Assembly: GCA_004321925.1 (NCBI GenBank)
Contig: SCQH01000040.1
Span: 1 to 64,000, forward strand
Source: Nitrospirota bacterium
Lineage (GTDB): Bacteria > Nitrospirota > Thermodesulfovibrionia > Thermodesulfovibrionales > UBA6898
Reading direction: 5' to 3'
DNA: 64,000 bases
Positions 40,280-63,300 of the stretch are shown here, one piece after another (position 1 is the first letter of the stretch; each line of letters starts with the position of its first letter). A program made the position numbers and the translations under genes. The notes under the pieces were generated by a model that was given only the letters and a program-made list of their open reading frames with translations, ran no database searches and was not told where the DNA came from.

Positions 40280-42502
<2,223 letters not shown>

Positions 42503-42566
42503 TTATTAGTGCGTTATATCAACAGCGTAGCACAGAACATTGGACCCCGCAAGGCAGAGCGACAGA

Positions 42567-42737
42567 GGGGACGTTGCCAACATAAACAACATATGATAAT
42601 ATTGCGGCATGACGAGACAGGTAACTCCGCAGGCCCTTTACGCGTCATCGTGCCGCCTGGAAGAAAACAGTCCGATTCCCGTGGACGACATAGAACGCTG
42701 GTGTTCATAATATGTTGTTTAAATTGGCAACGTCCCC
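42567..42737. mobile_element. MITE-like REP element with internal RAYT transposase relic
   Basis: Arms of 28 bases at 42567-42594 and 42710-42737 are inverted copies with two mismatches (outer GGGGACGTTGCCAA, inner AAACAACATAT). Between them is a decayed start of a REP-associated tyrosine transposase. Size (171 bases) and layout suggest a non-autonomous element made by internal deletion. It lies between katG and the Big_2 gene. Confidence 0.8.
42609..42703 (+). pseudogene. RAYT transposase N-terminal relic, frame-broken
   Basis: ATG at 42609 reads Met-Thr-Arg-Gln, then continues Pro-Gln-Ala-Leu-Tyr-Ala-Ser-Ser-Cys-Arg-Leu-Glu-Glu-Asn-Ser-Pro-Ile-Pro-Val-Asp-Asp-Ile-Glu-Arg. This follows the usual RAYT start (Met-Pro-Arg-Gln...Ala-Leu-His-His-Val-Ile...Arg-Gly-Ile-Glu...Val-Asp-Asp) with damage in the middle. 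No catalytic His-hydrophobic-His remains. Confidence 0.55.
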
Positions 42738-42759
42738 TATTACGTCCCCTGGAGATTAT

Positions 42760-43401
42760 ATGAAAGTCAAATTAATCAGTTTCGTTAGCTTTTTCTTACT
42801 GTTTGCAGTCCAGAATGTTTTGGCGTTGGTAATAACATCTCCGAAAAACGGTTCCACCTATAAAACAGGGGACACAGTTAAAGTTGTTGCAGAGTTATCC
42901 CAAGGTTCTGACTATGATAAAATATTATGGGTAGATTTCTTAATTTCAGAGGGATTGAATGAGAGTTGTCCCAAAGAGATCGCTACCCACCCGCGATATG
43001 AATGCACCTTCACGATTACACAATATAGCCCTCAGATTATCATAATTACTGCGTTGGGGAAAACAGTTGACAGTGCTGTTGTTTCGCCAACTATTACAAT
43101 ATCTGTCCCTCTCCCCTCCTCAGTAACTTTGCAGAGTTTGAAATCATTTACAGGAAACAGGCAATTTTTCAGTCAAATCGGCGACCATAACCAGCTTTAT
43201 ATTGTCGGCACTTACTCTGACGCTATAGAACGGGATATCTGGTTGGCAGAGAAAGGGACAACCTATATAAGCAGTAATGAGAAAGTTGTCACTGTCAATG
43301 TAAATGGTCTTATAACCGCAACAGGCGCAGGCAAGGCACAAATAACAGTAAAAAATGGCAGTAAAAAACTCGTTATTGATGCCATTGTCCAAATAAGATG
43401 A
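42760..43401 (+). CDS. small secreted protein with a bacterial Ig-like (Big_2) domain
   Basis: 213 aa from the ATG at 42760, with GGAG seven bases upstream; the frame opens 16 codons earlier inside the REP arm without support. A signal peptide ends near residue 22 (Val-Leu-Ala). The middle looks like a beta-sandwich (Ser-Pro-Lys-Asn-Gly-Ser-Thr-Tyr). The C-terminal 80 residues match Big_2: Ser-Ser-Asn-Glu-Lys-Val-Val-Thr-Val, then Gly-Leu-Ile-Thr-Ala-Thr-Gly-Ala-Gly. AT-rich and enclosed between two copies of the same 53-base REP sequence, so it is probably mobile cargo. Confidence 0.72.
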   Translation: MKVKLISFVSFFLLFAVQNVLALVITSPKNGSTYKTGDTVKVVAELSQGSDYDKILWVDFLISEGLNESCPKEIATHPRYECTFTITQYSPQIIIITALGKTVDSAVVSPTITISVPLPSSVTLQSLKSFTGNRQFFSQIGDHNQLYIVGTYSDAIERDIWLAEKGTTYISSNEKVVTVNVNGLITATGAGKAQITVKNGSKKLVIDAIVQIR

Positions 43402-43422
43402 AAGGGCTCGATAAGAATAATA

Positions 43423-43475
43423 GGGGACGTTGCCAACATAAACAACATATGATAATATGGCGGCATGCCGAGACA
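43423..43475 (+). repeat. second copy of the 53-bp REP/RAYT 5' end
   Basis: Matches 42567-42619 over 53 bases with two mismatches (at 43459 and 43468). The two direct copies frame the Big_2 gene. Confidence 0.9.
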
Positions 43476-43530
43476 AGCGAGACTGGATGCAGTTGGGGTG
43501 CTCTATTTTACCTTATATACTTTTCTTCTC
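43465..43530 (+). pseudogene. RAYT transposase N-terminal fragment
   Basis: Met-Pro-Arg-Gln-Ala-Arg-Leu-Asp-Ala-Val-Gly-Val-Leu is the classical start of REP-associated tyrosine transposases (TnpA-REP). After about 13 residues the frame leaves the family and stops at 43530. A matching C-terminal part lies 1.35 kb downstream, beyond two toxin-antitoxin pairs. Confidence 0.75.
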
Positions 43531-43576: not shown

Positions 43577-43900
43577 TTAGTCCACCAGCATTTCCCTGAT
43601 AACTGATTTTATTCTTTTAACAGCGCTTTCGTTAATTTTGCCAAGTTTCTTAACAAGACGCCTTTGGTCAACTGTCCTTATCTGGTCAAGGACGATCCAC
43701 CCGCGTTTCCCCTGGAATGACACCTTGACTCTCGTTGGATAGTCATGAGATCTTGTTGTCAGGGGAGCGATCATAACAGTCTGAATGTTCAGATTCATTT
43801 CATCGGGAGAGATGACCACGCACGGCCTTGTTTTTTTAAGTTCATGCCCGATTGTCGGGTCAAGAGATATCAGAAACACCTCGTACTGCCTTACTTCCAT
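43577..43900 (-). CDS. mazF: MazF/PemK-family endoribonuclease toxin
   Basis: 107 aa from the ATG at 43900 (GGAGG seven bases upstream); a TTG two codons earlier is possible. MazF cuts mRNA at short sequences. Family signs: Gly-His-Glu-Leu-Lys-Lys-Thr-Arg-Pro-Cys-Val-Val-Ile-Ser (with the catalytic Arg), Pro-Leu-Thr-Thr, and Gly-Trp-Ile-Val-Leu-Asp-Gln-Ile-Arg-Thr-Val-Asp near residue 70. Its start overlaps the end of the antitoxin gene, so the antitoxin is translated first. Confidence 0.92.
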   Translation of the reverse strand: MEVRQYEVFLISLDPTIGHELKKTRPCVVISPDEMNLNIQTVMIAPLTTRSHDYPTRVKVSFQGKRGWIVLDQIRTVDQRRLVKKLGKINESAVKRIKSVIREMLVD

Positions 43901-44142
43901 TCCCAACCCTCCAGTTCAGGCTCTATCTTTTCGTCCAGCAACAGGGCATCTTCTTTTCGTTCATGCATCATACTGAAAGCCTTTCCCCAGCCGTCCCGAG
44001 GTTTGCTCCTGATAGGCTTTATGACTATCATATCTTTTTCCCTGACAAGTTCCACCTGTGTTTCGATATTGCATTCCTTGAGCATCACCTGCGGAAGCCT
44101 TATTCCCTTTGAGTTTCCTATTGATATCACACTAGCCTTCAT
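43891..44142 (-). CDS. mazE: MazE/AbrB-type antitoxin
   Basis: 83 aa from the ATG at 44142, which has GGAGG eight bases upstream. The N-terminal swapped-hairpin DNA-binding domain is clear (Ile-Gly-Asn-Ser-Lys-Gly-Ile-Arg-Leu-Pro), followed by an acidic C-terminal tail (Leu-Leu-Asp-Glu-Lys-Ile-Glu-Pro-Glu-Leu-Glu) that should wrap the toxin. It overlaps mazF by ten bases. It probably represses the promoter described just upstream. Confidence 0.9.
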   Translation of the reverse strand: MKASVISIGNSKGIRLPQVMLKECNIETQVELVREKDMIVIKPIRSKPRDGWGKAFSMMHERKEDALLLDEKIEPELEGWEWK

Positions 44143-44173
44143 TGATTTCGCCTCCATCACAGTGTTTTGTGTA

Positions 44174-44202
44174 ATTATAATGTAATTACCTCAAGAAATC
44201 AA
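44174..44202 (-). promoter_or_regulatory. sigma-70 promoter of mazEF
   Basis: On the minus strand TTGATT (44202-44197) and TATAAT (44179-44174) are 17 bases apart, giving a leader of about 25 bases to mazE. Two TGTAATTA copies within it may be the antitoxin's operator. Confidence 0.7.
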
Positions 44203-44216
44203 TGCGTAGAAAATAT

Positions 44217-44235
44217 AGGGGACGCTTCATAATAT
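44217..44235 (+). repeat. possible degenerate REP fragment
   Basis: The bases from TAGGGGACG at 44217 onward resemble the start of the 43421 REP copy (TAGGGGACG) before diverging. A short match only, but it lies exactly between the two toxin-antitoxin pairs. Confidence 0.35.
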
Positions 44236-44238
44236 CTC

Positions 44239-44267
44239 TTGACGATAATATCCAGGTGAGATAATAT
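44239..44267 (+). promoter_or_regulatory. sigma-70 promoter of higBA, leaderless layout
   Basis: TTGACG (44239-44244) and TAATAT (44262-44267) are 17 bases apart. The higB ATG is at 44275, so transcription should begin at or next to the start codon. GATAATAT occurs twice (44243-44250, 44260-44267), a likely operator pair. Confidence 0.75.
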
Positions 44268-44274
44268 ATAGAAA

Positions 44275-44556
44275 ATGATCAAATCATTCAAGAGCAAGGA
44301 GGCCGAAAAATTGTTTCAGGGCCGGTTCTCCTCGAAATTACCGCAGGCAATACAACGTTCTGCCGCAATAAAGCTTGAAATGATTAACGCGGCAACCGTT
44401 TTCGAAACACTGCGGGTACCGCCGTCCAATCACCTGGAGGAATTACACGGAGCCAGGAAGGGGCAGTACAGCATTCGCATCAATAAGCAGTGGAGAATTT
44501 GTTTTACATGGAAAGGCAGCGATGCCTTTGATGTTGAAATCGTCGATTACCATTGA
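44275..44556 (+). CDS. higB: HigB-type (RelE superfamily) toxin
   Basis: 93 aa. HigB toxins cut mRNA on the ribosome. Family marks are Ile-Lys-Ser-Phe-Lys-Ser-Lys at the N terminus, Leu-Glu-Glu-Leu-His-Gly-Ala-Arg-Lys-Gly-Gln-Tyr-Ser-Ile-Arg-Ile-Asn near the middle and Trp-Arg-Ile-Cys-Phe, with a C-terminal Asp-Tyr-His. Toxin-first order is typical of higBA. There is no room for a ribosome site between the -10 box and the ATG, so it is probably translated from a leaderless mRNA. Confidence 0.92.
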   Translation: MIKSFKSKEAEKLFQGRFSSKLPQAIQRSAAIKLEMINAATVFETLRVPPSNHLEELHGARKGQYSIRINKQWRICFTWKGSDAFDVEIVDYH

Positions 44557-44568
44557 GAGGTGAGAAAA

Positions 44569-44874
44569 ATGAAGAAACGTGATTTTCCTCCGATCCATCC
44601 AGGCGAAATTCTGATTAAGGAGTTCCTTGAACCCCTGGGAGTCAGCCAGTACAGGCTTGCCAAAGACATAGGCGTTACACCGCGCCGAATAAATGAGATC
44701 GTGCATGGTCGTCGCGCAATTTCTGCCGACACAGCGCTGCGTCTCGGTCATTTTTTCGGTATGGAAGCACAGTTTTGGCTGAACCTGCAGTCCCGTTATG
44801 ATATGGAAGTCACCCGTGATCAACTTCAGGAGAAAATCAAAAAAGAAGTTCGTCCCTTCTCACACGCTGCATGA
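44569..44874 (+). CDS. higA: HigA-type antitoxin (XRE HTH)
   Basis: 101 aa from the ATG at 44569, 12 bases after the higB stop; AGAGG lies about eight bases before it. The start reads Phe-Pro-Pro-Ile-His-Pro-Gly-Glu-Ile-Leu, the HigA/VapI hallmark, then a helix-turn-helix (Ser-Gln-Tyr-Arg-Leu-Ala-Lys-Asp...Arg-Ile-Asn-Glu-Ile-Val-His-Gly-Arg-Arg). It should neutralise HigB and repress the operon. Its stop overlaps the start of the RAYT relic. Confidence 0.92.
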   Translation: MKKRDFPPIHPGEILIKEFLEPLGVSQYRLAKDIGVTPRRINEIVHGRRAISADTALRLGHFFGMEAQFWLNLQSRYDMEVTRDQLQEKIKKEVRPFSHAA

Positions 44875-45245
44875 GCTGTGAGGAATACCGTTCAGATGAA
44901 TGGGTGCTGGGTTCCTCGACCTTCATAGAAGGGATTTTGCGGGAAGCTGAAAGGCAGGAAGAGAAGAAAAGGGAAGAGGTAACCTTAAAAACACTGATCA
45001 GTCGTATCGCTGAGGACAGGGATATCAGTGAAGAATCAATGACCAGTGCGGGGAGAAGCAGGAAAGTGACGCAAGCGCGGGCGGCGCTGGCATACGTCTG
45101 GCTGAGATACCTTGGCCGGGCATTTTATCATATCACGACTACGGGGTCATATCACGACTACGGGGTCATATCACGACTACGGGGTCATATCACGACTACG
45201 GGGTCATATCACGACTACGTATCACGACTACGGGGTCAGACTTGA
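44871..45245 (+). pseudogene. RAYT transposase C-terminal relic running into tandem repeats
   Basis: The first 80 or so codons read Trp-Val-Leu-Gly-Ser-Ser-Thr-Phe-Ile-Glu, an Arg/Glu-rich helix, Leu-Ile-Ser-Arg-Ile-Ala and then Thr-Gln-Ala-Arg-Ala-Ala-Leu-Ala-Tyr-Val-Trp-Leu-Arg-Tyr-Leu-Gly. This is the C-terminal part of REP-associated transposases, which carries a DnaA-like helical domain. From about 45125 the frame enters 19-base tandem repeats and is no longer RAYT. The catalytic part is missing. The open frame alone (124 codons) could still be expressed. Confidence 0.7.
45128..45235 (+). repeat. tandem array of a 19-bp unit
   Basis: TCATATCACGACTACGGGG occurs four times in full (from 45128, 45147, 45166 and 45185), followed by two shortened copies (45204-45219 and 45220-45235). 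Units are identical, hinting at recent slippage. The array ends with GGGGTCAGACTTGAC, also found at 12761. No spacers, so not a CRISPR. Confidence 0.95.
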
Positions 45246-45370
45246 CTATTGACATTTGTGAGACCAAAGGGACGTTCGATTCAATGAGAATTATCGGAGC
45301 TCCACATTGCTCGCTCCATCCCCTCCCGCAACGCAAACCCAAAAGCATAGCATAATTAGCTAAAAAAAGA

Positions 45371-45393: not shown

Positions 45394-48300
45394 ATGCATG
45401 AAATATATCACTATCATGACCAGGTGAAACGGATAGTACATAACCTGGCACAGACCTTTATCGCGGTCATGCTGTCTGCGGTACCGGTATCGTCCGCTGC
45501 CGGTGCGATTGATCAATTTGCCGCCAAAACAATTGGTGATCACGGGAACGTCACGGTCATGGAGGTGACGGGCACTTATGACGAAAAAACCCCCGACGGC
45601 ACCGTCAATGCCGGACCCCGGCAGATAATCTCAAAGGAGTTCTACCGCCTTCATAAGGATGAATATGACTTCCTCGTCATCTTTTCGAACTTCAATTTCA
45701 GGCTGTCGGACGGAACGATCGCCTTTTATCTGGGGGCCAGGAACGACACACGGGGCATCGGAAATGAACTGTTTGATAGTTCGCTTCTTTTCGGCAGCAG
45801 CAGGCTCCAGGGGACGATCGACATGGGAAATATCGCGAACCTGTCGATGGTCCCTACAGATCCGAAGTTTCAATTCACCCTCGACACGATCAGCCACGAG
45901 ATGATGCACCGCTGGGCCGCCTACGCGCGGTTCAGGAATCCCGACGGCTCGCTTAACACGGGACTGCTTGGCAAGGACGGCAGTCACTGGAGCTTTCTGC
46001 TCAGCACCGATGCATCGCTCATGTATGGTAATACCTGGCAGGACAACGGCAACGGGACCTTCACATCCGTTCGCGCAAGAAAATACTATAGCCCGCTTGA
46101 CCTCTACCTGATGGGGTTCATTGACAAATCGCAGGTCCCCCCGATGCTGCTCATCGACAACCCTGATATCGATCCGAAGCGGGTATCGCAGGTGGGCGTA
46201 ACCATATCCGGGACCCCCCGTTACATTACAATCGACGACATAATTGCTGCAGAGGGTGAAAGAGTGCCTGGACCTGCCGAGGCACAAAAGACGTTCAAAA
46301 CAGCGTTCATTTTTATAACTGAACAGGGCACTTTTACCGGCGATGAAATATACGGTCTTGAAAATGTCAGAAACGGCTGGCTTACCCGATACTCGGTCCT
46401 TACCGACGGCGCCGGACTCGTCCAGGTGGCCTTATCACCACTAGACAATCTGCCGGTAAATCCAGGCGTCATTCCTCCTACAGTGACTCCGAGGACACTT
46501 CCGCCGAATATAGATGACGCCGTAACGTGGATAAAGAATGAGCAAAAGTCTGACGGAAGCTGGATGGATCTCGGGCAGACGGCAGAAAGGGACACGGCAG
46601 AGGCCGTTGTAGCCTTGAAGGAGTTCGTTGCTGCCGGACCCAACTATTCGACCGGCCTGCAGTGGCTTGGTGGTCAGTCGTCCGGTTCAACAGATTATCT
46701 GGCAAGGACAGCTGAGGCGCTGGCGGATGCCGGGCTGGACACTGCATCCCAAATGAGCGAGATTGCCTCACGACAAAACAGGGACGGGGGATGGGGAAGC
46801 GGAAAGAGTTTTGCCAGCAGCCCCTCTGATACCGGTCTTGTACTTAAGATGCTTGCTAAGACCGGCTATACCGGTCAGCCTGTCATAGCGAAGGCAATAG
46901 AATATCTTAAGGCAAAACAGAACCCCGACGGAGGCTGGGGCAACGAAGAAGGCAGCAGGGTGGAGACAACGGCGAACGTGCTCTTCGCCTTCAGGAAGTA
47001 TACTGCAACCTATGCATTGGACGACCGAATAGCTTCAGGAAGTTCCTGGCTTCTGCAGCATCAGAATCCTGACGGCGGGTTCGGCAACAGTCCAAGCACG
47101 GTCTATGATACCGCGCGAGCGCTGCTGACCCTTGCCGAGCTTGATATTGCCAAGGACAGCAGAAATAGGGCCATAGGGTATATTCTCCAGGGTCAGTCCG
47201 GTGACGGCAGCTGGCGGGATAGCCCCTATCAGACGGCCCTTGCAATCGAGGCCCTTTACAAGGCCACCGTCGATCCCGATTTGGCGGTGAAGGCCAGTGA
47301 TCTTAGTTTTTCACCGGCGACGATCGCGTCACTTCCGAGTAATGTTGTCCTTAGCGCGAACATTGCAAACCTCGGAAGGACGGCAGTGCCTCAGGCCAAA
47401 GTTGCCCTTTATGAAAACATCTCCGGATCTATGGCCAAGCTGGCTGAACAGACGGTATCTTTCCCCGGCAGATCGACAGTGACGGTATATTTCCCAATAT
47501 TATTTGACGACGAGAGCAGCCGCACGTTTTATATCATGGTTGACCCTGATAACCTTGTGGCCGAGTCTGACAAAGCAAACAACACGGCTTCAAGGAATCT
47601 TCAGGCAGAGGCCGGCATAATGCCTGACCTTGCAATCACCCCTTCAAGCATTTCATTCGTCCCTCAAACAATCGCGGCCATTCCATCAACACTTGCCATA
47701 AATGTCGATGTTGCCAATTTGGGTTCATCAACGGTTCCACAGGCAAAAGTGGCGCTTTACGACGGGGACGTCTCCGAAGCAAACAAGATTGCTGAACAGA
47801 TCGCGGCATTCCCCGGCAGGGGAAATACCACAATATCCTTCCCTGTAGCCATCACAGACGGACGTGAAAGGGTCTTTACCGTGGCTGTCGATCCGGGCAA
47901 CCTCATCAAGGAGTCTGACAAGACCAACAATATGGCGGTTCAGCGAATCAAGCCGGTTGCGTTCACAGAGCCGGACCTATCAATCTCTTCAAACGACATA
48001 ACCTTTGCGCCTTCGACGATCGGGGCCATCCCATCCACCGTCACCATAAACGCGAGAATAGCCAATTTCGGTAAAACTGCGGCGCAGAGCTTTAAGGTGG
48101 CCCTTTATGAAGGAGTGGTATCGGACGCAAGCAGGATCGGCGAGACAACTGCTTCGGTCCAGGGCGAAGATTTCGTTGTCGTGAGCTTTTCGACCACGGT
48201 AAATGACGCCAGTGATCATAAATATATAGTGTCCGTTGATCCCGATAATCAGGTCCCGGAGTCCGTAGAGACGAACAATACAGCCTGGAATGTGCTTAAA

Positions 48301-51300
48301 AACAGTCTTGTCTATGATTTCGAGGTGCTGCAAGGTAACCTGTCAGCTTTACCGAACCCGGTCGATCTCGGGCAGGATGTGACAATAAGCGCGAAGATAT
48401 CAAATAAAGGCAGGCAGAACGCCTATAGCGTGCATGTACGATATTATCTCGACCTGCCCGGGGCGCCTTTGGATATCGCTACGACCACCGTGGATATCCC
48501 GGCAGGCGGGTCGGTCAGCGATCAGGTTACCTGGAAGACGAGCAGGCCCGGTCCTGACCTGCCTGTTACTGTCCATGTCGATCCCCTTTCCGAGTTTATA
48601 GAAGTCACGAAAGCGAACAACAAGGCCGCAATATTGCTGACAGTAAACGGCCCGACCGATCCGAACCTGACAGTCTCCTATAAGGACATTGTGATAACTC
48701 CGAACCCCGCACAGGAGAGGGGCAACGCGAACATCTTGGTGCTTGTGAAGAATGAAGGGTTCTCGGCAGCGTCAAACGTTCTGGTGAACTTTTACGAGGG
48801 AGTGCCGGGCGTCGACGGCGTGCCTTTGGGCTCGCAGACGATACCTTTGCTGAATGCGGGGGATAGTGCAAGAGCGTCGATCGATTGGGTCGGCATAAAG
48901 GATGTTGGGAAAAAGATCATATACGTTAAAGTCGATCCGGATAATGCGATAAGCGAGACAAGCAAGGACGACAATACGGCATTCCTGACCCTCCAGATCC
49001 TTACACTGCCGGACCTGGCGATCTCGACCAATTCCATCGTATTTAACCCCGTTGCTCCGAAGGACGGCGACCCCGTCAGCATTAACGTGACGATCAAGAA
49101 CCTCGGAGAGCAGAGCGCCTCCAACGTTCTTGTGAAGGCGTATGAAGGCAGCACAGTAATCGGGTCTCAAACCATCTCCGGAATTACCGGCAATTCCCAG
49201 GCAGCAACTTCTTTTTCGTATGACACAAACGGGAAGAACGGGCCCCACCAGATCACGGTAATAGTCGATCCCGACAATACGATAGTCGAACGCATCAAGG
49301 AGAACAATACCGCTTCGAGGACCTTCGGCATCCGGGATGCCAAACTCTGGGTAACCGAGCAGTATATCTCTCCCAATGGAGATGGTATAAAGGACAGCAC
49401 ACAGGTTTTCTTCGGCCTCGATGCTTCGCAGACAGTAAGGGTCCTCATTGTCAACGAAAAGGGCGAGACCGTAAGGACGTTCAGCGGGACAGACCTTGAG
49501 AATGCCACCGGAGGCAACGTTGTCTGGAACGGGCTAAACGACAACGGCTCGGTCGCTGCCGACGGCCAATACCATATCAGGGTGACGGATATGAACGGAA
49601 ATATCCTCGGAAGCCTGCTCGTCACGCTCGACAACAACCGCTCGCCCTTGAGCCGGGCACTCGGCACAAAATACCTTCTGAATAGTAACCTGACCTGTAA
49701 GCTGCCTGATTTCAGTGAATGGAAGTGGCTGCCCAGTGAGAGCGGAATGATCTTCAGCATAAATTATGCAGATGCAGATGCGGACGCTTCGGGATATCCG
49801 CCAGGACTATATTCCATGGCCCCTGACGGGGAAGATGTCATCCGCCTTGTACCGGACAACACAGTACCCTATGAATGGGCTATTGAAGCGTTCGATCTCT
49901 CGCCCGACGGGGAAAAGATAGCATTCATAGCAAATGACAGACTGTGGGTGGTTAATTCTGATGGGAAGCAACTGACGATGCTTGATGAACCCTCAAGCGG
50001 TATATATGACGTCAGATGGTCTCCTGACAGAAAACATCTTTTATATACTGTAGGGCAGATCCGCAATCAGCAGGGATATTCAGCCTATGAACTCTGGATA
50101 GTTAATGCGGAGACTAAGGCAACGACGAAGATCGACTGGGGTTTTCTGACTTTCGGGTTGGGGGCTGCCGAGTGGTCGCCAGACGGTCAGCATATCACCT
50201 ACCTGGCATTATCGGACAGCATGCTGCAGCAGTACCGGCAGGTAGACGAATTGAAACTGTCGGACCTGGCGGGCAACAAGTCGGTCATTCATACCTTTGA
50301 CAGGACAACATCGTATACGCAGATGTACTGGCTCGACAGAGCCAAAATAGCCTTTCAGCATCCCTCACAGTCCAATCAGCTATGGGCGTATGATCTGACC
50401 GGCGGAGGGCACCATCTCTTTATATCTGAATATCCCGATCAGGTCGTTCAAAACCCCGACAAAGGAGGCATCACCTACAGGGAAAGACTGAATGATAGGA
50501 AGATCTATGTGAGGACTGTTAATGCCGAAGGCTCGATATCGACGCACTATGAAGCGTCGGATCTGCAGGTAAACAGCGGTTCGGGCAGTACCGGCAACCT
50601 AAGCAATTTGATATGGTCTTTTGACGGCAGGAAGATTGCCTTTGCCGACATGACATATAAGAAGATTGATAAATGCATATATGAGCCTGCCCTGATCGCT
50701 CTTGACGCTCCGTCGATGAAGAGAAATGGCCTTAAAATATTTAATTCAGAAGTTGCTTATGCTCAGGAAGGCTATCCGTACAATTCCGACTGCGCTGACC
50801 CTAGTAAGTATGCGCTCAATAACGTCGAAAGCATAGCGTCATGGCTTCCGGATAATGAGAACCTGCTGCTTCTTGATAATAAAGGGTACTTCGACTTCAA
50901 TACCACGACGGGTGAAAAGGGAGGGTACATACCTATTGACGGAGTTGAAGCAGTGTCACCCGCCGGCAGGTATATAAATTATTATCGTGACGCAGACCCT
51001 GCCGGTATCTGTTATGGCAGGGGATGGCCGGATGTATGGGCGATCGGGTCGATGCTTAATCTGACCGCTGACCTGAGAATAAATAAGGAAAGATCCCTGA
51101 TCAGACTGAAGGGGATCGCCGCAGATCTGAATTTCGAAGGATACAGGCTGGAGTATTCAGATGCAAAGACCCCCGATAACTGGAACCTGGTTGGGCCACC
51201 ATCTGATATGCCGGTGCTCAATGATCTGTTTACGACATGGGTGCCGCCCCATGAGGGAGCTTTTTTCCTGAAACTGACCGTCTGGGACAAGGCCGGCAAC

Positions 51301-54300
51301 ATCGCCATAGATAGAAAGAGGGTTTCATGGGGGCTTTCGGCAGCCATTACGAACCTGTATAAGACTAGGGAGATATTCTCCCCCAATGGAGACGGACTCA
51401 AGGATACGGTGGAACTCCATTATACGGTCCTTGAGCCGGTACATCTGGATTTCTTCATTTATGCTGAAGACAATAGTATTGTCAGGACGCTCAATCGGGA
51501 TCATACGTCTCACATGGATGACTTTATTACATGGGACGGAAGGGATGAATCCGGCAGGATCGTTCCTGACGGGAAATATACGATCAAGTTGTTTGACTAT
51601 GAATTCTTTGTCGAGGTCGATAATACCCCGCCGGACGCAAACCTCATGTTGACCCCTGTCGTACTCGCTAAAGACGACGCAGGGTACCCGGCTGTTTCTT
51701 CAGAATTACGCGGCCATGCTGTTGACAGGAATTTAAAAAAGTGGGCAGTCGAATATGGCGAAGGCCTTAACCCTTCCCAGTGGGTTTCGTATGGGTGGGG
51801 AGTTTTTCAGTTGACCGATACCGACCCGCTGGGGAATCCCCTCCTCAACCCTCCAACCGATGTGTTACTGGAGGGATACGTTAATAATGGGTTGGAGTTC
51901 CTTGTCGGGAAGAAATTCAGGGTTGTTGCAGAAGACGCGGCAGGCAATCAGCAGACTGCGGTTACGGATATGATCGACGAAAGATTGTTTTTTAATGACT
52001 GGGATGGCACTTCAATCATTGATGAGGTGCCGGCGCATCTCCTGCATCCCGGAAGGCATATGCTTGGAGGGCTGGAGACGATACAGAATCCGGTCCATGC
52101 GCTTTATGTTCAGTACAGCCAGGAATATGATCTCAAAAAAGGAGGGTGGATAAACTGGATAGACAGTGAGCCCAAGCTCGACCCGGCATCGGGGAATTTA
52201 TTCATAGAATGGGATAACAGTCTCATAGATTTCAAGCGGCTCTATGCGATCCGCCTTAAGGCGATCGACGATAAAGGTGTTGTATTTTACTCAAACATCA
52301 TGCCCGGCAAGGAGAGATACGGTCTTCAGGTTGGCTGCAGCAGTAACATCGACAAAGGCGTTCTTGTCCTGGAGGGTAATATCTCATTGTACCAGCCGTT
52401 TAAACAACTGAGGTTCCAGGCCAAAAGCCAGGACGATTCACACTTCGCCCAGTGGACTGATATTGAGCTTTTGTATGGTGAAGCCGGTGGTGCTTTATTT
52501 GGGATCAAGGTTCTGCCTGATCATGGGGTCGAGATTCCGCAGGGTCAATTTGTGGTCGGGGCCGACAGCGTTGTCGGTATAGTCATGAATCAGTTTAGTC
52601 CGCATATGCGATATACGTTCCGCATGGTGGGCACGTTTGAAGACGGTACCGAGAAAGAAACCATTGAGGCTCCCTATCCGCCCAAATGCGACGCGGTTGT
52701 CCTTGGGATCTCAGTCAGTTATAAGGACGCTGATGAGTGCCAAATGATTTCGGGGAAGGCATCAATAGGCGCAACGGCAAGTTATAGTAGCGCCGTTGTT
52801 TCGCCGATATCTCTGAAATTATATCTCAATGATGTATTGGTGGCGAACCCGCTGGAGAATCTGGATACTATCTCCATGCCTGAGGGAACCCATCCAATCA
52901 GGGCAGAGTTCGAGTATATTGACCTGTCCGACGGAGAGGTCAGGATGGCAAAAGCTCAGGACAGGCTGATTGTTGATCGAGCTCTGCCTGCTGCTGAGAT
53001 AACCTATCCCACCAAACCGTTACGTATCTGTCCTGTGAAGGTTCCTGACGTTAAAGGCGATTGGTTTGGTCTTCCGGTAGAAGGCATTGCCTCAGATAAT
53101 ATGGCCATGAAGCGATATGAGCTGTCTTACGGCATCGGGGAGAAGCCGTCTGTATGGATCCCGGCAACGACGCAGGTAAAGGGGAAAAAAGTTCCCATAA
53201 CCGGCGACCGCCCTGTTGCGGGGCGTCTGGGGATCTGGGATATCACAGATCTTAAGGACACGGATTATTCGTTGAAGCTCAAGGTTCTTGACGTTGCAGG
53301 CAATGCTGGCTGTTATACGACCAACTTTGTCGTGGACACGTTGATCGAGGTCACGGGGCTGAATTCCGACAGACATATTGTCTCCCCGAATGGCGACGGG
53401 ACAATGGACGATGTTACAGCCAGCTATCAGATAGATGAATACGCCACGGTTGCTGTTAAGGTATTTAAGGCCTCCACGCACGCCGACGGCTCTTATGTCC
53501 TTGACTCGACCCCTGTCAGGACTATTGCCTCTGGGATTCAGCATTTAGGGGGAGCGGGCACTATAGTGTGGGATGGCATGGGTGATTCCGGCAGCGCCCT
53601 GCCGGATGGATCGTACGGGATCGCGGTCATCCCGACCGATACTTGCGGCAATACGAATATGAAATGGGTGCTGGTTGAGGTTGACAATACTCCGCCGACA
53701 ATGGTTATTACCTATCCGCGTTCCACCGATCCTATCGGTAATGTTGTTGAAATCAGAGGGACCGCTAATGACCCTCATTTTCTGTCGTATTCCCTTGAGG
53801 TGGGCGAGGGAGACATCCCCATTGCCTGGCTCCCTATTTCATCAGAAGCTTCCCCCGTAAATTACGGGATCCTGGGTATCTGGAACACCTTCGGACTTCA
53901 GGGCAGGTGGACGCTGAAACTTTCCGGAGCCGATACGGTTGGCAATAAGAATGAAACAAGTGTCAGCATCGATCTGGGCACAAGGCAGGATCTTATAAAG
54001 AACCTTAATGTTCTCCCGAAGCTTTTCTCCCCCAATAACGACAATAGACTTGATACGACAAATTTCAATTATAATCTTACCGGTGCCCACAGCACGAAGA
54101 TCGAGATAATCGATTCGAGCGGGACGGTCAGAAAGACGTATGCGACAACCGCACCGTCCGCCGGAGCATATATGTACCTGTGGGATGGCCGCGACAGTGC
54201 AGGTATCCTGGTTCCTGACGGTGCCTATATCATTAAACTTACCGCTGCCCTTTCTTCGAACCCTTCAGTGACCCAGACAGAGACCGTTACCGTTGTTGTG

Positions 54301-57300
54301 GATACGACACTGCCTCTCATAGATATCAAACAGCCTATAATCAATTCATATATCAAATCCAATGCCGTTACAGTGTTCGGCACAACCAGTGATGTCAATC
54401 TGGCGGAGTATTCCATCACTAATACCGGGGAAACCGGTACGGCGCCTGTCGATGCTGCCAGCCAGAGCAGGGGGGACTACGTTTTTGGAACACTTAACGA
54501 TCTCCCTGAGGGGACCTATGCGATGAATGTGAAAGCGAAAGACCTTGCCGAAAACTCAAGCGAAAAGAACATTCCTTTTACCATCGACAGGACACCGCCG
54601 AAGGTCACGCTCGATGCTCCGAAGGACAGAGAGTTCTACGGTAACATCAAAAACGTCATCAACGCGACGGGCGGCATAGTGGAGAGGAACCTCGAAGGAT
54701 ACAGTCTCAGGTGCGGCCTTGGCGACAATCCGACACTGTGGACGGTATTACAGAGCGGGAATGCAGTACCCGTTAACCCTCAGCTTTTCAGTTGGAAGGT
54801 CGGAAAGAACGATGCAGTTCCTGATGGCCTCTATACACTTTCACTTTATGCAAAGGACAAGGCAGGCTGGGAGCGCGAGGCGAAGGTCAAGGTTACAATA
54901 GATAATACCCCGCCGGATGTTTCCATAGCTTCGCCTAGAAATGGGGATTATGCCAAGGCTGCAACAGATATCAGAGGCACGGCCTTTGACGCCAACCTCC
55001 TGAAATATATCCTGGAAATCTCCGCCGGCCCATGCGGAAGCGCCTTCAAATGGGCCCCGCTTAAGATTGCAACCAATTCCGTGAAAGACGGGTCCCTCGG
55101 TTCACTTCAGGCCCTGCCGCCTGACGGGAATTACTGTCTGAGACTTACCGCCCTGGACAAGGTCGAAAATAGCTCGATGGTCATGACGAGTGTGAAGATT
55201 GATACCACGCCTCCTGCTTCACCTGTGCTTTCCGGCAAGGTGGAGAACAAAAAGGATGCGAGACTTACATGGACCGCCAGCACGGAGTCTGACCTCGCGG
55301 GCTATGACCTCTACCGGGACGGTCAGAAGATCAACTCGACATTACTCAAAGATGCCTTGTATCTTGACCAGAGCCTGAAGGAAAATGTTTATGCATATGT
55401 TGTGAAGGCTATAGATCTTGCGGGCAACGAGAGTAAACCCTCAAATGAGATCAAACTCAAAATCGATCTCACCGGGCCCGACGCAGCGATCCGGTCGCCG
55501 CAGGACGGTGCAAGGATCGGTGGCATAATTGACATCAAAGGTACCGCATACAGTATCGACGATTTTAAGGAGTATCGGGTCTTTATAGGAGTCGGCGAGG
55601 CTCCGTCTTCATGGATGCTCAGCAGGACATCCCCGCTTTCTACATCCTATGGCATATTGGCCCAATGGGATACCCTTGGTCTGCCCGAAAATGCCGTCTA
55701 TTCGATCAAACTCGAGACCGAGGACCTGAGCGGCAATATCAATACAGACCAGATCAAGGTGGTGATCGATAACCTTCCTCCTGCTCCACCGGTGCTTGTC
55801 ACGGCGGTGCCGAACGGTTCGGATGTGACTCTGACATGGAATGCCAACACGGATACTGATCTTAGCGGATACCTTCTGTACCGCAACGAGCAGCTTGCCA
55901 ATGTGGCAGGCATAGTTGTCGGCAATCTCAAGCCCTACCTCATGACGGCTACGGCATACCCCGACAAGGCCCTGCCGGACGGAAAGTATAAATACTACCT
56001 GATAGCTATGGACCGGGCAGGTAATATGAGCGGCCAGTCAAACGTGCTTGAGGTGACTATTGATACCCATCCTCCGCATACGATCATTACGGAACCTCGG
56101 GATAAAGCGAAGTTCGACAGGAAGACCATGCTGAAGGCAGAGTCGCCGGACAACGATATTGCAACGGTCAAATTCCTCTATAAAAAGGCTGTGGACACGA
56201 CCTGGACAAACCTGGGCGACCCTATAACAAAACAGCCTTTCGTAACATTTATAGACCCTGCAGCCCTTGCTCTGTCATACGCCGATTATCAGATCATGTC
56301 AGTCTCGACTGATATGGCGGGGAATGGTGATCCGTCTCCTGCATTCATCACCCTTACCTATACTGACGTGACACCTCCAGCTACAGTTCAGAACCTGAAG
56401 GCCGCGACCAACGGGCAGGATGTTGCTCTGACCTGGACGGCAGATACCGCGGCCGATCTTGAAGGATACAGCATTTATAGAATATCCGGAGGCTCAAGGA
56501 CGAAGCTCAATGCTGCGAAGACCAAAGAAATATCCTATCACGATAGGGGTCTATCCGATGCTACATACACCTATGAAGTCACGGCATCCGACTTAGCCGG
56601 CAATGAAAGCAAGGCCTCAAACCAGGCCATGGCCCGGGTGTATGCGCCTGTTATTACTCAACCTTATACGCCTTCCGACAAGAGTGTCATACAGCTTCAG
56701 TTCGAGAATGCAACTCCAGGTTCGTCCGTTGATCTGTTCAACGATAGCGGTTCGGGACCAGTGTCACTGGGAACTACTCAAGCCGGTACGGCCGGAACAC
56801 TTACGTTAAATCTGTCCCTGTCATCCGGCGAGAACAGGTTAACCGCGAAAGCAACTGATCAGTCGGGAAACATAAGCAGGGGTTCGGACATGGTCATGGT
56901 TGCCTACAGCATGCCGCCTGCTGCGCCGACCGGACTTGTCGCAAGCGCACAGGGTCATGACGTTGCGCTTACCTGGAACGCTAATGTCGAAACAGACATT
57001 GCCGGATATAATCTATTCAGGAACGGCGAAAAGCTCAATGCCCCTGCAGCTGTTGCCGCCTTGACCGGCAGCGCCTCTTCATCCTATTCCATCTCTCCGG
57101 CTGAAAATGCACTGGACGGGCAATGGTGGACCTACTGGAGGTCTGATTATGGCTCTGTGCCATTCAACCCTGTCTGGTACGAGATCGACCTGGCATCAAG
57201 GGAACTGATAAACAGCTTAAGCATCCAGTGGCTCACAACGAACGTCGGTAAGGATTACGAGATCCAAGCATGGTCGGGCTACGCATGGATACCAATCCAT

Positions 57301-60300
57301 AAAATGACCGGAAACACGGTGACCACGAATCATATCGATATCAAGCCGTCCTACAGGACGGACAAGTTGAGGATCCATATTACAGACACGACAGATAAGG
57401 AATATTACAAGCGGGTCGATATATCCGAGATCACGTTGTTCAGGGACGTTCAGCTGATCCAGCCGACATACAACGATCTTGCGATTCATGACGGCGCGTA
57501 TTCATATGCCGTGACCGCCGTCAATTATTACGGCTTTGAAAGCCCTCTATCTGCTGAAGCAATGGCCGAAATCGGGGATGTTACGCCGCCTGCTATACCG
57601 CTAAACCTTTCTGCCACTGTGAGCGGGACCGATATCAGCCTGAACTGGACGGCAAACACAGAGGCCGATCTTGCCGGTTACAATCTTTACAGATTTTCGC
57701 CGCAGGGCTGGACCAGGCTTAATACGGGCCCCATACTTGATACGACGTATATCGAGACGGGGCTGCCTAACGGAACCTATAGATATAGACTTGCTGCGGT
57801 CGACACTGTCGGCAATGAAAGCCTGCCGTCGAATGAGGCGACCGCTGTTATTAGTGTGACTGACACGATCGTTCCACCAAAACCGGCGCTTTTCTACCCT
57901 ACCGTGGCAGGGCTTCCAATTGTATTGCAGAAAGGCAAGACCGATGTCATCGGGTTTGCCGGGGCGGGCTCTACTGTCACGCTGTCCAGGTCCGGGGTTC
58001 CAGTTGGCACCACAACAGCCTCGGCTAGCGACAATATCAGCTCAGTCTCTATTGAAAGCGCCTGGAGCTATGCATCGCCCTCACCGGATGGCAAGACCCT
58101 TGTCAACGTCGACAGCTATAGTTCAATCTGGGTAAAGGACCTTGCAACGGGACAGATAAGACAGGTAACCCCATATGGTTATGCCCCGGGTTGGTCTCCT
58201 GACGGCAGCAAACTTTCCTATGAATACTACGAAGACAGGAATGGGTTTGGGAACTTCTTCATTGGTGTCTACGATCTTGCAACTGGAGTAGCTACAACTC
58301 TGGTCAATGAAACGAGCGAGCCATTTGTCGACGAGTTTGCCGTCTCATGGTCATCTGACGCGAGCAGGATTGCCTTTGTCAGATATGAGGGGGGTTCTTA
58401 TAATGCATGGGTCAAGGATTTTATATCCGGAGCGCTTAATCAGGTTACGAGCGGTCCTGAGCCTTATTACCCTAAACTGGCACCGAACGGAAACAAGCTC
58501 GCTTATATAGACTCGGCAACAGGAATTCTTTATGAAAAAGATCTCAGTACTGGAGAAATCATCCTTGTTGCTGAGAATCAGGACGACGATAATGTCAAAT
58601 GGTCTTTAGACAGTAAAAAGCTGCTGTTTATCGAAAATGATGGACAGAGAACCGATCTGTACCGTTACGATGTAACAACTAGGAACAAGGCCAGATTAAC
58701 GGTGACGGATACTACTGAACTTTTTGCATCATGGTCACCTGACGGAACCAGTATCATTTTTGGTCAGAATGAAAGCGACGGGAGCATCTCGGTCAGAATG
58801 ATGTCCGCGGACGTCCAGGATAGCGGCAGAGCTCTCCGGCAGAATATGCCTGGTCTCAATAGCCTCTCGTGGTTAAATTCAGGAGATATTTTCTTCATGG
58901 ACGGACAGGTATTAACAATTTTACGGCCCAAAGGGTACTTCAACTTCAAGGACATTCCTCTTGATGCTGGGGAGAACCTGTTCAATGTTGTAGCAACCGA
59001 CTCATCCGGTAATCTCAGCCAGCCCTCTGACGAGATCTCGGTCATACTGGAGACAAGCCAGCTGCCGGACCTTGAAACAACAACTGATGATATCTATCTC
59101 TATCCCGCAGTACCCCTGGCGGGGCAGACCTTGGCGATAAATGTCGTGGTCTGGAACAGGGGTCTGTTGGCGGCGATGGATGTTCAGGCAGATCTGTACG
59201 TTACCGATTTTCAGGGGAATATGTCGCTGCTTAAGTCCGTGGTTATCCCCAGTATCGACCCTGAGTCAGCCGAGATTGTGGGTGCTAATTGGGATACTAC
59301 AGGTAAAACCGGCGCTGCTCTGGTGACTGTTGTCCTCGATCCTCTCGGTAAAATATCGGAAGTGACGAAATCGAATAATTATGCAGTGCTGGACTTTGTC
59401 ATGGTCGATACAGAGGGAATTCAGATGACGACGTCGTTGAATTCCGATCAAATGCAGGCAAAGAAGGATTTACGTGCGGATATCTATATTGTCAATAGCG
59501 GGATACGCAAGACCGGAAACCTTGAGGTCTCGGTCGAGGACGAGCGCGGCTATCTTGTATCTGTGCTGTACTCCGGTGGCATTGATCTTCCGTACGGTTA
59601 TCAGAGGCATCTCGACCTGACCTGGAACTCCGGTTCAACCTTTGCCGGTCCCTATAGAGTGCATTCCTTGTTGAAGGACACCTCAGGCGTTTTGGCCGAA
59701 AACGTCGTCTCATTTACCATAATGCCCGATATCGCGGTGAAGTCCTCAATCGTTACCGACAAGGCCCAATACGGTCCCGGTGAGAACGTTTCATTGAGTT
59801 ATACCGTGGAGAACAGCGGATCAAACTATATTGTCCCTGACATGAAGGCTACGGTGAGGATTCTGGATCCTCTCAATAAAGAGATGTTCAGGGAAGAAAA
59901 AGATATTGTCAACACACTGCCGGGCGCGGCAAGTAATTTTAACGCGATATGGAACGCAGGGCTGAACGTGCCCGGTACATACACGACTGTTATCGATGTG
60001 TCGATGAACGGAAATGTCGTATCAACAAACTCCGCAAAATTCAGCATCTCTGCAAAGGCAGAGATTACCGGAGGCATAAAAACGACGCCTGCAGCCGTTA
60101 TCTATGGGAACCAGGTAGTCATTGACTACTCGGTTACAAATGCGGGAAACAGCGACAGGACAGGGATATTGTTAAGAGTCCTCGTAATGGACCCCGCAAC
60201 CCAGGCCATTGTGAATTCGTCTGACGAGACCATTGACCTTGTCATGAAAGGGACCCTTTCGAGGCAGACCGTGCTGTTGACCCAAGGTCTGGGCTTGAAA

Positions 60301-63300
60301 ACCTATGTCGTAGTGCTGCAGGACGTTTCCCCAAGTATTACAAAAACCTTGGCGAACACCTCCTTTGCCGTCATTGACGGAGTTCCGCCAACGATCGGTA
60401 TTAATTCCCCTGCTTCGGGCGCATATTTCAATGCGCAGATCGACCTTACGGCAGTCGCTGCAGACGACATCTCCGGCATCGATAAAGTGTGGTGGCAGAT
60501 CGACGGAAGAGGGTGGAAACTATTGCCGGTCGCAGATACCCAGTCCGGCAGGTATTCAGCAGCTTGGACGCCGATAAAGGCTGATGAAGGGCCGCATACG
60601 GTAAGTTTCAGGGCCGTTGATAGATCCGGGAATCAATCCGCTGCCGTCAGCGCTTCCTTCACGATCGACCTGACCCCTCCGGACTTGGCCATATCGACTC
60701 TGTCAGACGGCGCTAATACGAATAACTCAGTGCTGAATATAGCTGGGACAGTGACCGACAATTACGGAGTGCGCGAACTCTTTGTTAACGACATCGCCGT
60801 GCAGAACAATTCCGATGGGACATTCAGCTATCCCATAATTCTCAACGATGGTCCGAATACGATTAACGTAACGGCTCGGGACTTAGCCGGCAACGAGACG
60901 CAGGACGCCAGGACGATTAATCTGGATCTGACCGCTCCTGTGATAACGATACTTACGCCGGCGGACAACATTAAGACGAAGCAAAACCCAATGGATTTAT
61001 CCGGCATGGTCGATGAGCAATCGACGGTAACAGTCAGGATCAACGGGGCCGATCCCGTCCCTGCTGTGCTGGACGGCAACAATTTCAGCCTGTCGATAAT
61101 ACTGGTTTATGGGCTTAACACCATAGAGGTGACTGCTACAGATCTTTCAGGCAATACATCTTCCGCGAAGAGGACCCTGACATTCGATGACAGGACCCCA
61201 GAGCTTGCGGTCACCGACCCGGCTCAGGATGTCAAGACGAACACGCCGGATATGACTGTCAAGGGAGACGTAAGTGATATTTCGACAGTTGCCGTTACGA
61301 TAACGATGGACGGCAACACATATTCTCCTGGCATGGCTGGTGCGGGGTTTGAGCTGCCGATCAGATTTACGACGGAAAAGCTCTACCAGATCTACGTTAA
61401 GGCAACTGATGAACTCGGGAATGAGACGATAGTACAGAGAAACGTTATATATGATGCAACAGCCCCAATGGTGACTTTAGACACAGTGACAAGCCCCACG
61501 AGTATGGTAAGCCAAATAGTGACTGGCACCGTTGAGGCAGGGGCATTCGTCAGCATTGCATGTCCGACAGCGAACGTCGGCATAGTCTCATATCCTACGC
61601 CCGAGACATGGTCAGCAATATTGTCGAATATGAGCGAGGGGATACATGTGATAGAGGTTGCTGCCACTGACGATGTCGGCAATACAAGCCAGACTGTCAG
61701 GGGGGAGATAGTTGTCGATCTGACACCTCCTTCGGTAACTATTGCGGCGCCGGTAAGCGGAACTACTCATAATGGCAAGGTTGACCTTATCGCAATTGTA
61801 TCGGATAGTGGGTCTGGTGTCGAAAGAGTCGAATACCAGATCGACAGCGGTGACTGGAAACCTCTGCCCGTGTCGGATGCTGCACAGAACAAGTATTCGA
61901 CCGTCTGGGTAACTGTCCTTGCTGATGAAGGGACACATACCATCAACTTCAGGGCAGCTGACAGGCTAGGCATTATGAGCAGCCCGATATCAACCACCAT
62001 CACTATAGAAGTTTTATCCGGCACTATCAAGGCGACACCCGATCCTGTATCAAGCGGTCAGGAGGAGACACTTTCGTACAACATAACGAACGCCACAAGC
62101 GGGGATATCCCGGGTCTGACCGCCAGGATACTGATACTTGATCCCGATACCGGGGTGACTAAACAGACTTACGACCAGGTACTTTCCATCCCGGCAAACA
62201 CGGCTTTCGCCGGCAGTGTAAAGGCCCCGACGAAAGACCTTACACCAAAGAGATATAACGTCGTTCTTCAGGTCGCCGGCGCAGGTCTGCCGCTGCCCAA
62301 CAAGGAGCTCTCAAGAACGACATTTGAAGTTAAAGCAGCGCAAAATCCGGGCATCGAGATTGAAAAGACGATGCCAGATGTCAGAAATGTGCTGGTCTGG
62401 ATCAACGACGAATGCCAGTCCGAGACCGGCACAAGGTATCCGTCAGGGTATTTCGGCAGCAATACAGAAGATGTCGGATGCCTGGAAAACAAAAGAGATA
62501 GGCTGTGGCTAAATGATTCTAACTCTCAAGAAGGTGATTCAGGAGACAACGAAGATTCCTCAGGAGCTGATAATGATTGCAGAACGTGCACCAGGCGCGA
62601 CCTTGTCGATAGGGTCCTGAGCGAATCGGCCACGAGTCACGCAATCGTTTACTCGGCGCAAGACTTCCAGTATGAGATAAGAAACCCATATTACACGGAT
62701 ATTTTGATCCTCGGCAATCAGTATCCGCTGGAAGACCACTCTTGGGAAGAACTAAGGGAGAAGGTCAATATGGGGGTAGGTCTGATATCTTCACTATGGA
62801 TAAAGCAAGCAGCTGATGAGAAGAATGCGCCAGAAAACACGATGCTGGGATGCCGATACAAAGGGACAGTGCCTGGCAGGGATCATGAGATCCTTACTGT
62901 CCCGAGTCCGGTGACCGGGGCTGGCAGAATTTATTCGAAGGGAATAGCGGAAAAAATCGAAGCCCCAAAAGGGGCTGTCGTTGCCGGCTGGCTTGAAGAT
63001 GGTGCATGTGACGATGGAAGTAGATATGATTACCGGATAAATTGGCATACCGAAAACGGACCGAAACCATCGTGCGAGAGCCCTGCCATTGTTCTTAGCG
63101 GGTATGGCAAAGGAAGGACGGTATTTCATGCCTTTGATATCGGGAAGACCTTAAATGACAACACGTATTCCCAGGTAGCAGCCCTTATACAAAATTCACT
63201 GTCATACGTTCACAGCGTCTCAGACAGCAGCACCTTCGGACCACGCAGCCTTGTCCCCATAGAGATTCGCATCAGGAGCCTCGGCAGCGCCTTCGACCTT

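Follow-up and report, generated by a model that had tools for sequence, protein, structure and literature searches.

The window analysed here, the whole stretch of 64,000 nucleotides at positions 1 to 64,000 of contig SCQH01000040.1 from a Nitrospirota bacterium, contains a 171-bp element at 42567-42737 that is bounded, as the initial annotation had described, by 28-bp inverted arms with exactly two mismatches between them. The left arm (GGGGACGTTGCCAACATAAACAACATAT, 42567-42594, plus strand) has the same end type as two intact elements in other genomes (L138 and L139), and the right arm lies at 42710-42737 (minus strand). A repeat-finding tool extended the inverted repeat to 32 nt (42566-42597 and 42707-42738, 91% complementary, 109 nt apart), and the best 32-mer self-match within 42500-42800 was 29/32, a value of 28 being reached once in 300 dinucleotide shuffles and the others giving 25 or less. 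Folded as a single strand, the whole element formed one long hairpin that was far more stable than those of shuffled sequences (z -6.18). An extra GGGGACG lies just outside the right arm (GGGGACGTAATAGGGGACGTTG, 42743-42749, minus strand), where the flank itself is not fully repeated.

These arms had at first been read as REPs. However, neither arm alone formed a hairpin, each folding no better than its shuffles (z 0.06 and 0.24), and because of this absence of self-folding and the presence of only six such ends in the genome, the arms are not REPs, but GGGG-tipped TIRs of the published TIRtron/TIRYT kind. A REPIN, or REP doublet, of a classical RAYT would fit the short spacer between two inverted repeats and the RAYT-like character of the gene family (68.8 bits against profile NF047646, below its cut-off of 80), but is most improbable: the arms are not palindromes with a GT(A/G)G head, a GTAG across the tip is seen only at ends where GTA happens to be the last triplet of the flank, and the six ends in the genome compare with the more than 100 copies per genome of typical REPs in the available text of that literature. 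REPINs, in the available part of Bertels and Rainey 2011 (PMC3116915), are likewise short inverted repeats in pairs, associated with a RAYT-like enzyme, whereas the arms in the window are neither palindromic nor abundant.

The tips of the TIRs read GGGGACGT, and their agreement with the published TIRtron motif GGGGWSAS is limited to the first six of its eight positions; other TIRtrons in our data set have the tip GGGGTCAG, which is consistent with that motif. The dinucleotide TA is found immediately 5' of the GGGG tip at 46 of the 54 ends of this type, although not at the left end in the window, and could be either a target duplication or a part of the element, as both are compatible with the data.

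Between the arms lies a 33-aa open reading frame (42609-42710, plus strand; MTRQ/VTPQALYASSCRLEENSPIPVDDIERWCS) that joins the first 4 to the last 29 transposase codons and can be aligned to both ends of parental genes of the L138/L139 type. Alignment of both halves placed the deletion junction, GACAG/GTAACTCC, at 42620-42622 (plus strand), where a 1-nt overlap was read; in the comparison with the parents, the match to the left half extends to the end of ATGACGAGACAG and that to the right half begins at GTAACTCCGCAGG. Across the junction the frame reads MTRQ, then VTPQALYASS...IERWCS and a stop. The description of this region in the initial annotation as a frame-broken RAYT start was therefore correct in that a transposase start follows the left arm, but not in its reading of the frame, because the two gene ends (M1-Q4 and the C-terminal 29 codons) are fused in frame. 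L138, at 1071 bp, is longer than the element by 900 bp (300 codons).

A promoter-like sequence (TTGCCA-N17-TAATAT, 42574-42602, plus strand), recognized by its match to the consensus only, begins within the left TIR, and 6 nt separate its end from the ATG; by eye, L138 and L139 are similarly spaced. From this arrangement we infer that the parental gene would be transcribed, almost leaderless, from inside its own TIR, and the TIR promoter of the deletion copy may still be able to read toward an Ig-like gene at 42760, whose open reading frame begins 22 nt beyond the right TIR. The in-frame fusion, the promoter-like site in the TIR and the proximity of the 42760 start could together be taken to mean that a small gene or a cis-regulatory piece has been domesticated here, with selection acting on the 33-aa product or on a TIR promoter that drives 42760. 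We regard this as very unlikely, since an in-frame outcome is expected by chance in one third of cases, a comparable fusion in another genome (G034:C80) is out of frame, and the 33-aa open reading frame has neither a Pfam match nor an orthologue in which selection could be tested.

The ends of the element were recognized in 21 of 230 genomes of the class, at 54 ends in all, and the reversed-pattern control gave 0. Intact genes with matching ends, which the initial annotation had proposed looking for, were present in more distant genomes of the class: L139 (G183:C54) is complete at 1072 bp with an intact 336-aa gene, as is L138 (G160:C232) with an intact 333-aa gene. In G136:C45, a 333-aa gene without stops runs to the end of the contig, so that its right end is off the contig, and in G012:C42 both ends are kept around a broken gene. 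The proteins of G160 and G136 are 62% and 65% identical, respectively, to that of G183. The L139 protein matched Y1_Tnp at 41.1 bits and had a weak C-terminal DnaA-type HTH (Bac_DnaA_C, 21.8 bits, below the cut-off of 31.5), and an HFH motif and a tyrosine motif were seen by eye; these domains are on the parent and not on the 33-aa remnant.

As these intact relatives combine a Y1_Tnp domain, a weak Bac_DnaA_C domain and TIRs with no REP, we conclude, with a probability of roughly 0.88, that the 171-bp element is a TIRtron with an internal deletion, that is, the remainder of an HUH/Y1 gene (a TIRYT of Quentin subclass 2.1) between GGGG-tipped TIRs. The lineage would once have contained a full-length form of about 1071 bp with the same ends, from which one deletion event, either at the present site or prior to insertion there, would have taken out about 900 bp (roughly codons 5 to 304) and spared the two ends and the TIR with its promoter-like site, the 33-aa fusion being the result. 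Such a remnant would be inert at present and could move only by means of a transposase supplied in trans. The limited tip match, the missing TA at the left end and the failure to find an empty site among the congeners compared count against this reading. The broken element is tied to intact relatives, and elements of this TIR-type Y1 group evidently leave behind both internally deleted and one-ended copies.

The initial annotation was also right that the element derives from a RAYT-like Y1 transposase element, is non-autonomous and has kept both ends, but its further designation as a MITE implies a mobilised, multi-copy family. The copy count that it had suggested returned no second 171-bp copy in the element's own genome, nor in 26 further genomes of the family, so that a single copy stands in 27 genomes. 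Elsewhere in the own genome, the sequence matched another left end at 43422-43475 (54 bp at 96% identity) and lone ends on three contigs, C93, C40 and C52; two of these lone ends, at 1774 of locus L018 (C93) and 741 of locus L019 (C40), share about 130 bp of sequence past the TIR. A cognate intact gene with the ends found in the window was not found in the own genome either, where four Y1_Tnp genes have other ends or none detected: L017 has ends beginning GGGGACGTTGATGAA, L016 has ends beginning GGGGACGTTGTTTCAT, L014 (the C4 gene) has GGGGTCAGACTTGAC on its left side and no tip on its right, and no ends were detected for L015. A search of four congeners revealed no empty site comparable to the window region, the sequence upstream of katG being unalignable in three of them and without a match in the fourth, and part of the L017 locus compared with the same four congeners likewise gave no comparable site.

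Bacterial MITEs keep their TIRs and lose the transposase, and a true MITE would be a miniature element mobilised in trans and spreading as a 171-bp unit. The compact size, the retention of both ends and the same ends on intact elements elsewhere (G160 and G183) agree with this, but several near-identical two-ended copies, which a MITE family should have, were absent from all 27 genomes, and the Y1_Tnp genes at home have other or undetected ends. The element can thus be called MITE-like in structure though not in copy number, and we consider a true MITE unlikely. With a single copy and no intact gene with these ends at home, the element is a dead or trans-dependent deletion product, and it illustrates the shrinkage of such jumping genes, not the spread of a mini-element.

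The terms TIRtron, for such units, and TIRYT, for their enzymes, come from Di Nocera et al. 2013 (PMC3733652), whose available text describes, as in the parents identified here, a RAYT-like Y1 gene between long GGGG-tipped TIRs, with TIR repeats elsewhere in some genomes; the tip GGGGACGT differs from the GGGGWSAS given there. L138 and L139 have this organization, L139 has both the HUH/Y1 domain and the C-terminal HTH, and the copy in the window keeps the TIRs and the gene ends. We found no description of internal deletion derivatives or of tip duplications in the available text of PMC3733652. According to the available part of Quentin et al. 2018 (PMC6006769), 20 of 26 published TIRtron examples fall in subclass 2.1 of TnpA-REP, with a C-terminal HTH; proteins of this subclass resemble the parents in being long, TIR-associated and without REPs and in having a DnaA-type HTH at the C-terminus, whereas only 33 codons are left in the 171-bp element. 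What was available of both papers leaves open whether those Y1 enzymes that are associated with TIRs instead of hairpins act on these TIRs. The available text of Nunvar et al. 2010 (PMC2817692) reports BIMEs in which the 3' ends of rayt genes had become enclosed by REPs, and suspects RAYT-driven rearrangement, rather than slippage alone, behind BIMEs. There, too, pieces of a transposase gene are held between terminal repeats, but these repeats are REPs, whereas TIRs enclose the piece in the window and both gene ends are kept and fused.

Downstream in the window, 856 bp from the 171-bp element (start to start), lies a second, wrecked copy of which the 5' end alone, a TIR followed by MPRQARLDAVGVL, is found at 43423-43515 (plus strand), its first 54 bp being 96% identical to the 171-bp element. 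A C-terminal transposase remnant at 44880-45119 (plus strand; 54% identity to L139 residues 215-294, E 9e-19), with a weak Bac_DnaA_C match, probably belongs to this second copy, which we infer to have been divided by toxin-antitoxin genes. The intervening 43577-44874 encodes two such pairs, MazF/MazE (PemK 103.9 bits; MazE 24.6 bits, its cut-off of 24.7 being narrowly missed) and HigB/HTH (69.7 and 41.2 bits). Adjoining the C-terminal remnant is a tandem array (45128-45238, plus strand) of a 19-bp unit, TATCACGACTACGGGGTCA, present in 4.8 perfect copies over 45128-45219. The unit consists of flank plus the 7-nt tip of another TIR type, and the array terminates in a solo TIR of that other TIRtron type, GGGGTCAGACTTGACTATTGACATTTG (45232-45258, plus strand), as is found upstream of the C4 gene. 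Directly downstream, an open reading frame of 6137 aa (45394-63807) contains, by eye, many repeated extracellular-type domains.

When the 54 ends in the class were grouped by eye, 7 belonged to the 4 complete or contig-cut elements and 6 to 3 two-ended deletions, while 10 were on one-ended, 5'-anchored pieces of 79-279 bp (two contig-cut), 8 on pieces with the 3' end (three contig-cut) and 23 had little or nothing past the TIR. The two two-ended deletions besides that in the window are both in genome G034; that of 425 bp (C80) has the out-of-frame fusion, and that of 293 bp (C79) lacks the gene start, so that one in three is in frame, which is the chance expectation. In G015, three 5'-anchored copies (L071, L074 and L075) with mutual identities of 95-98% were found at three loci, two breaking off at about the same place (279 bp) and the third at 238, and no complete copy was found in that genome. 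One-ended movement, decay, or the spreading of a unit that had been truncated beforehand would each be compatible with this pattern, which is proof of none of them. Two 3'-anchored pieces of 158 bp in G008 (L067 and L068) are 98.7% identical at different places, and their likeness continues for about 12 nt outside the TIR.

The flank-plus-tip repeat in the array is of a kind that recurs at TIRtron ends. Tandem duplications of flank and TIR tip were found at 14 of 123 TIRtron ends, compared with 26 of 17,681 random positions; among the duplicated units some measure only 8 bp and are rich in G, and that at L154 is a run of 16 bp; one genome (G015) supplied two of the cases, and another two lie at opposite ends of the same element (L225). 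Gene-bearing elements were included if they had an open reading frame of at least 200 aa, flanks on both sides and two ends aligned at a TIR score of at least 18, which gave 45 elements with 86 ends, 83 of them testable and 3 too near a contig end; duplications occurred at 9 of the 83, and at 12 of 11,921 positions drawn at random from these loci. For the GGGGACGTTGCCAAC type, 5 of 40 other ends had them, compared with 14 of 5,760 random positions. In a first, smaller set, tip duplications were found at 5 of 62 ends; this set left out 11 loci with qualifying open reading frames but a lower TIR score (among them L178, with a GGGGTCAGG tip recognisable by eye), and contained four ends without a GGG core and 2 too near a contig end. 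An end's own 7-nt tip recurred within 30 nt outside it at 7 of 83 gene-bearing and 2 of 40 other ends, whereas ten farther 30-nt bins together held 0 and 2 recurrences, respectively, and the controls gave none (0/175 for GGGG[AT]C motifs without TIR character, 0/270 for the reversed motif). Across 229 genomes, a GGGGACG pattern gave a weak excess (17 matches versus 7 for the reversed control); the corresponding GGGGTCA pattern was not used, because many of its matches were simple runs of the heptamer and its control, too, gave numerous matches. Besides the array at 45128-45258, tandem flank-plus-tip repeats were seen at L017, L019, L128, L139 and L173, and, by eye, upstream of katG in G012:C7 (L212).

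At gene-bearing ends the duplications have their inner break 1-10 nt within the TIR. The data do not support a constant nick position of 7 nt as a rule, as only four of the nine duplications allow it (L017, L128, L139 and L242) and the remaining five break 1-4 or 10 nt inside. Frequent flank-plus-tip duplications at TIRtron ends may be new: partial-tip repeats were not met in the available portions of the literature, which was searched only in small part for duplications, while PMC3733652, in its available text, does describe REPs reiterated in tandem together with flanking DNA. It is possible, and we propose it only tentatively, that TIRtron ends are active sites of single-strand processing and that the 171-bp element is one product of it. 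If the TIR is nicked within about its first 10 nt, subsequent slippage or re-copying would yield tandem repeats of flank and tip, and the same one-ended chemistry could generate the many one-ended copies, both the 5'-anchored pieces of 79-279 bp and the solo TIRs. The duplications indicate where such a nick should be sought, and two intact elements of this end type exist.

The end pattern had no match in viral contigs, and the relatives found on plasmids (23 records) were all below 60% identity. The 5' ends of the elements in G211:C65 and G012:C42 are near-identical although the genomes belong to different families; both records carry the same groundwater project name, so that either transfer or mis-binning could be responsible. 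Lastly, lone TIRs were observed about 20-55 nt before attC-like integron sites at L148 (1439-1560), L145, L152, L020, L150, L073 and L144; the full RYYYAAC..GTTRRRY pattern was present at L148 only, 1 of the 17 examined, and the others were similar by eye.
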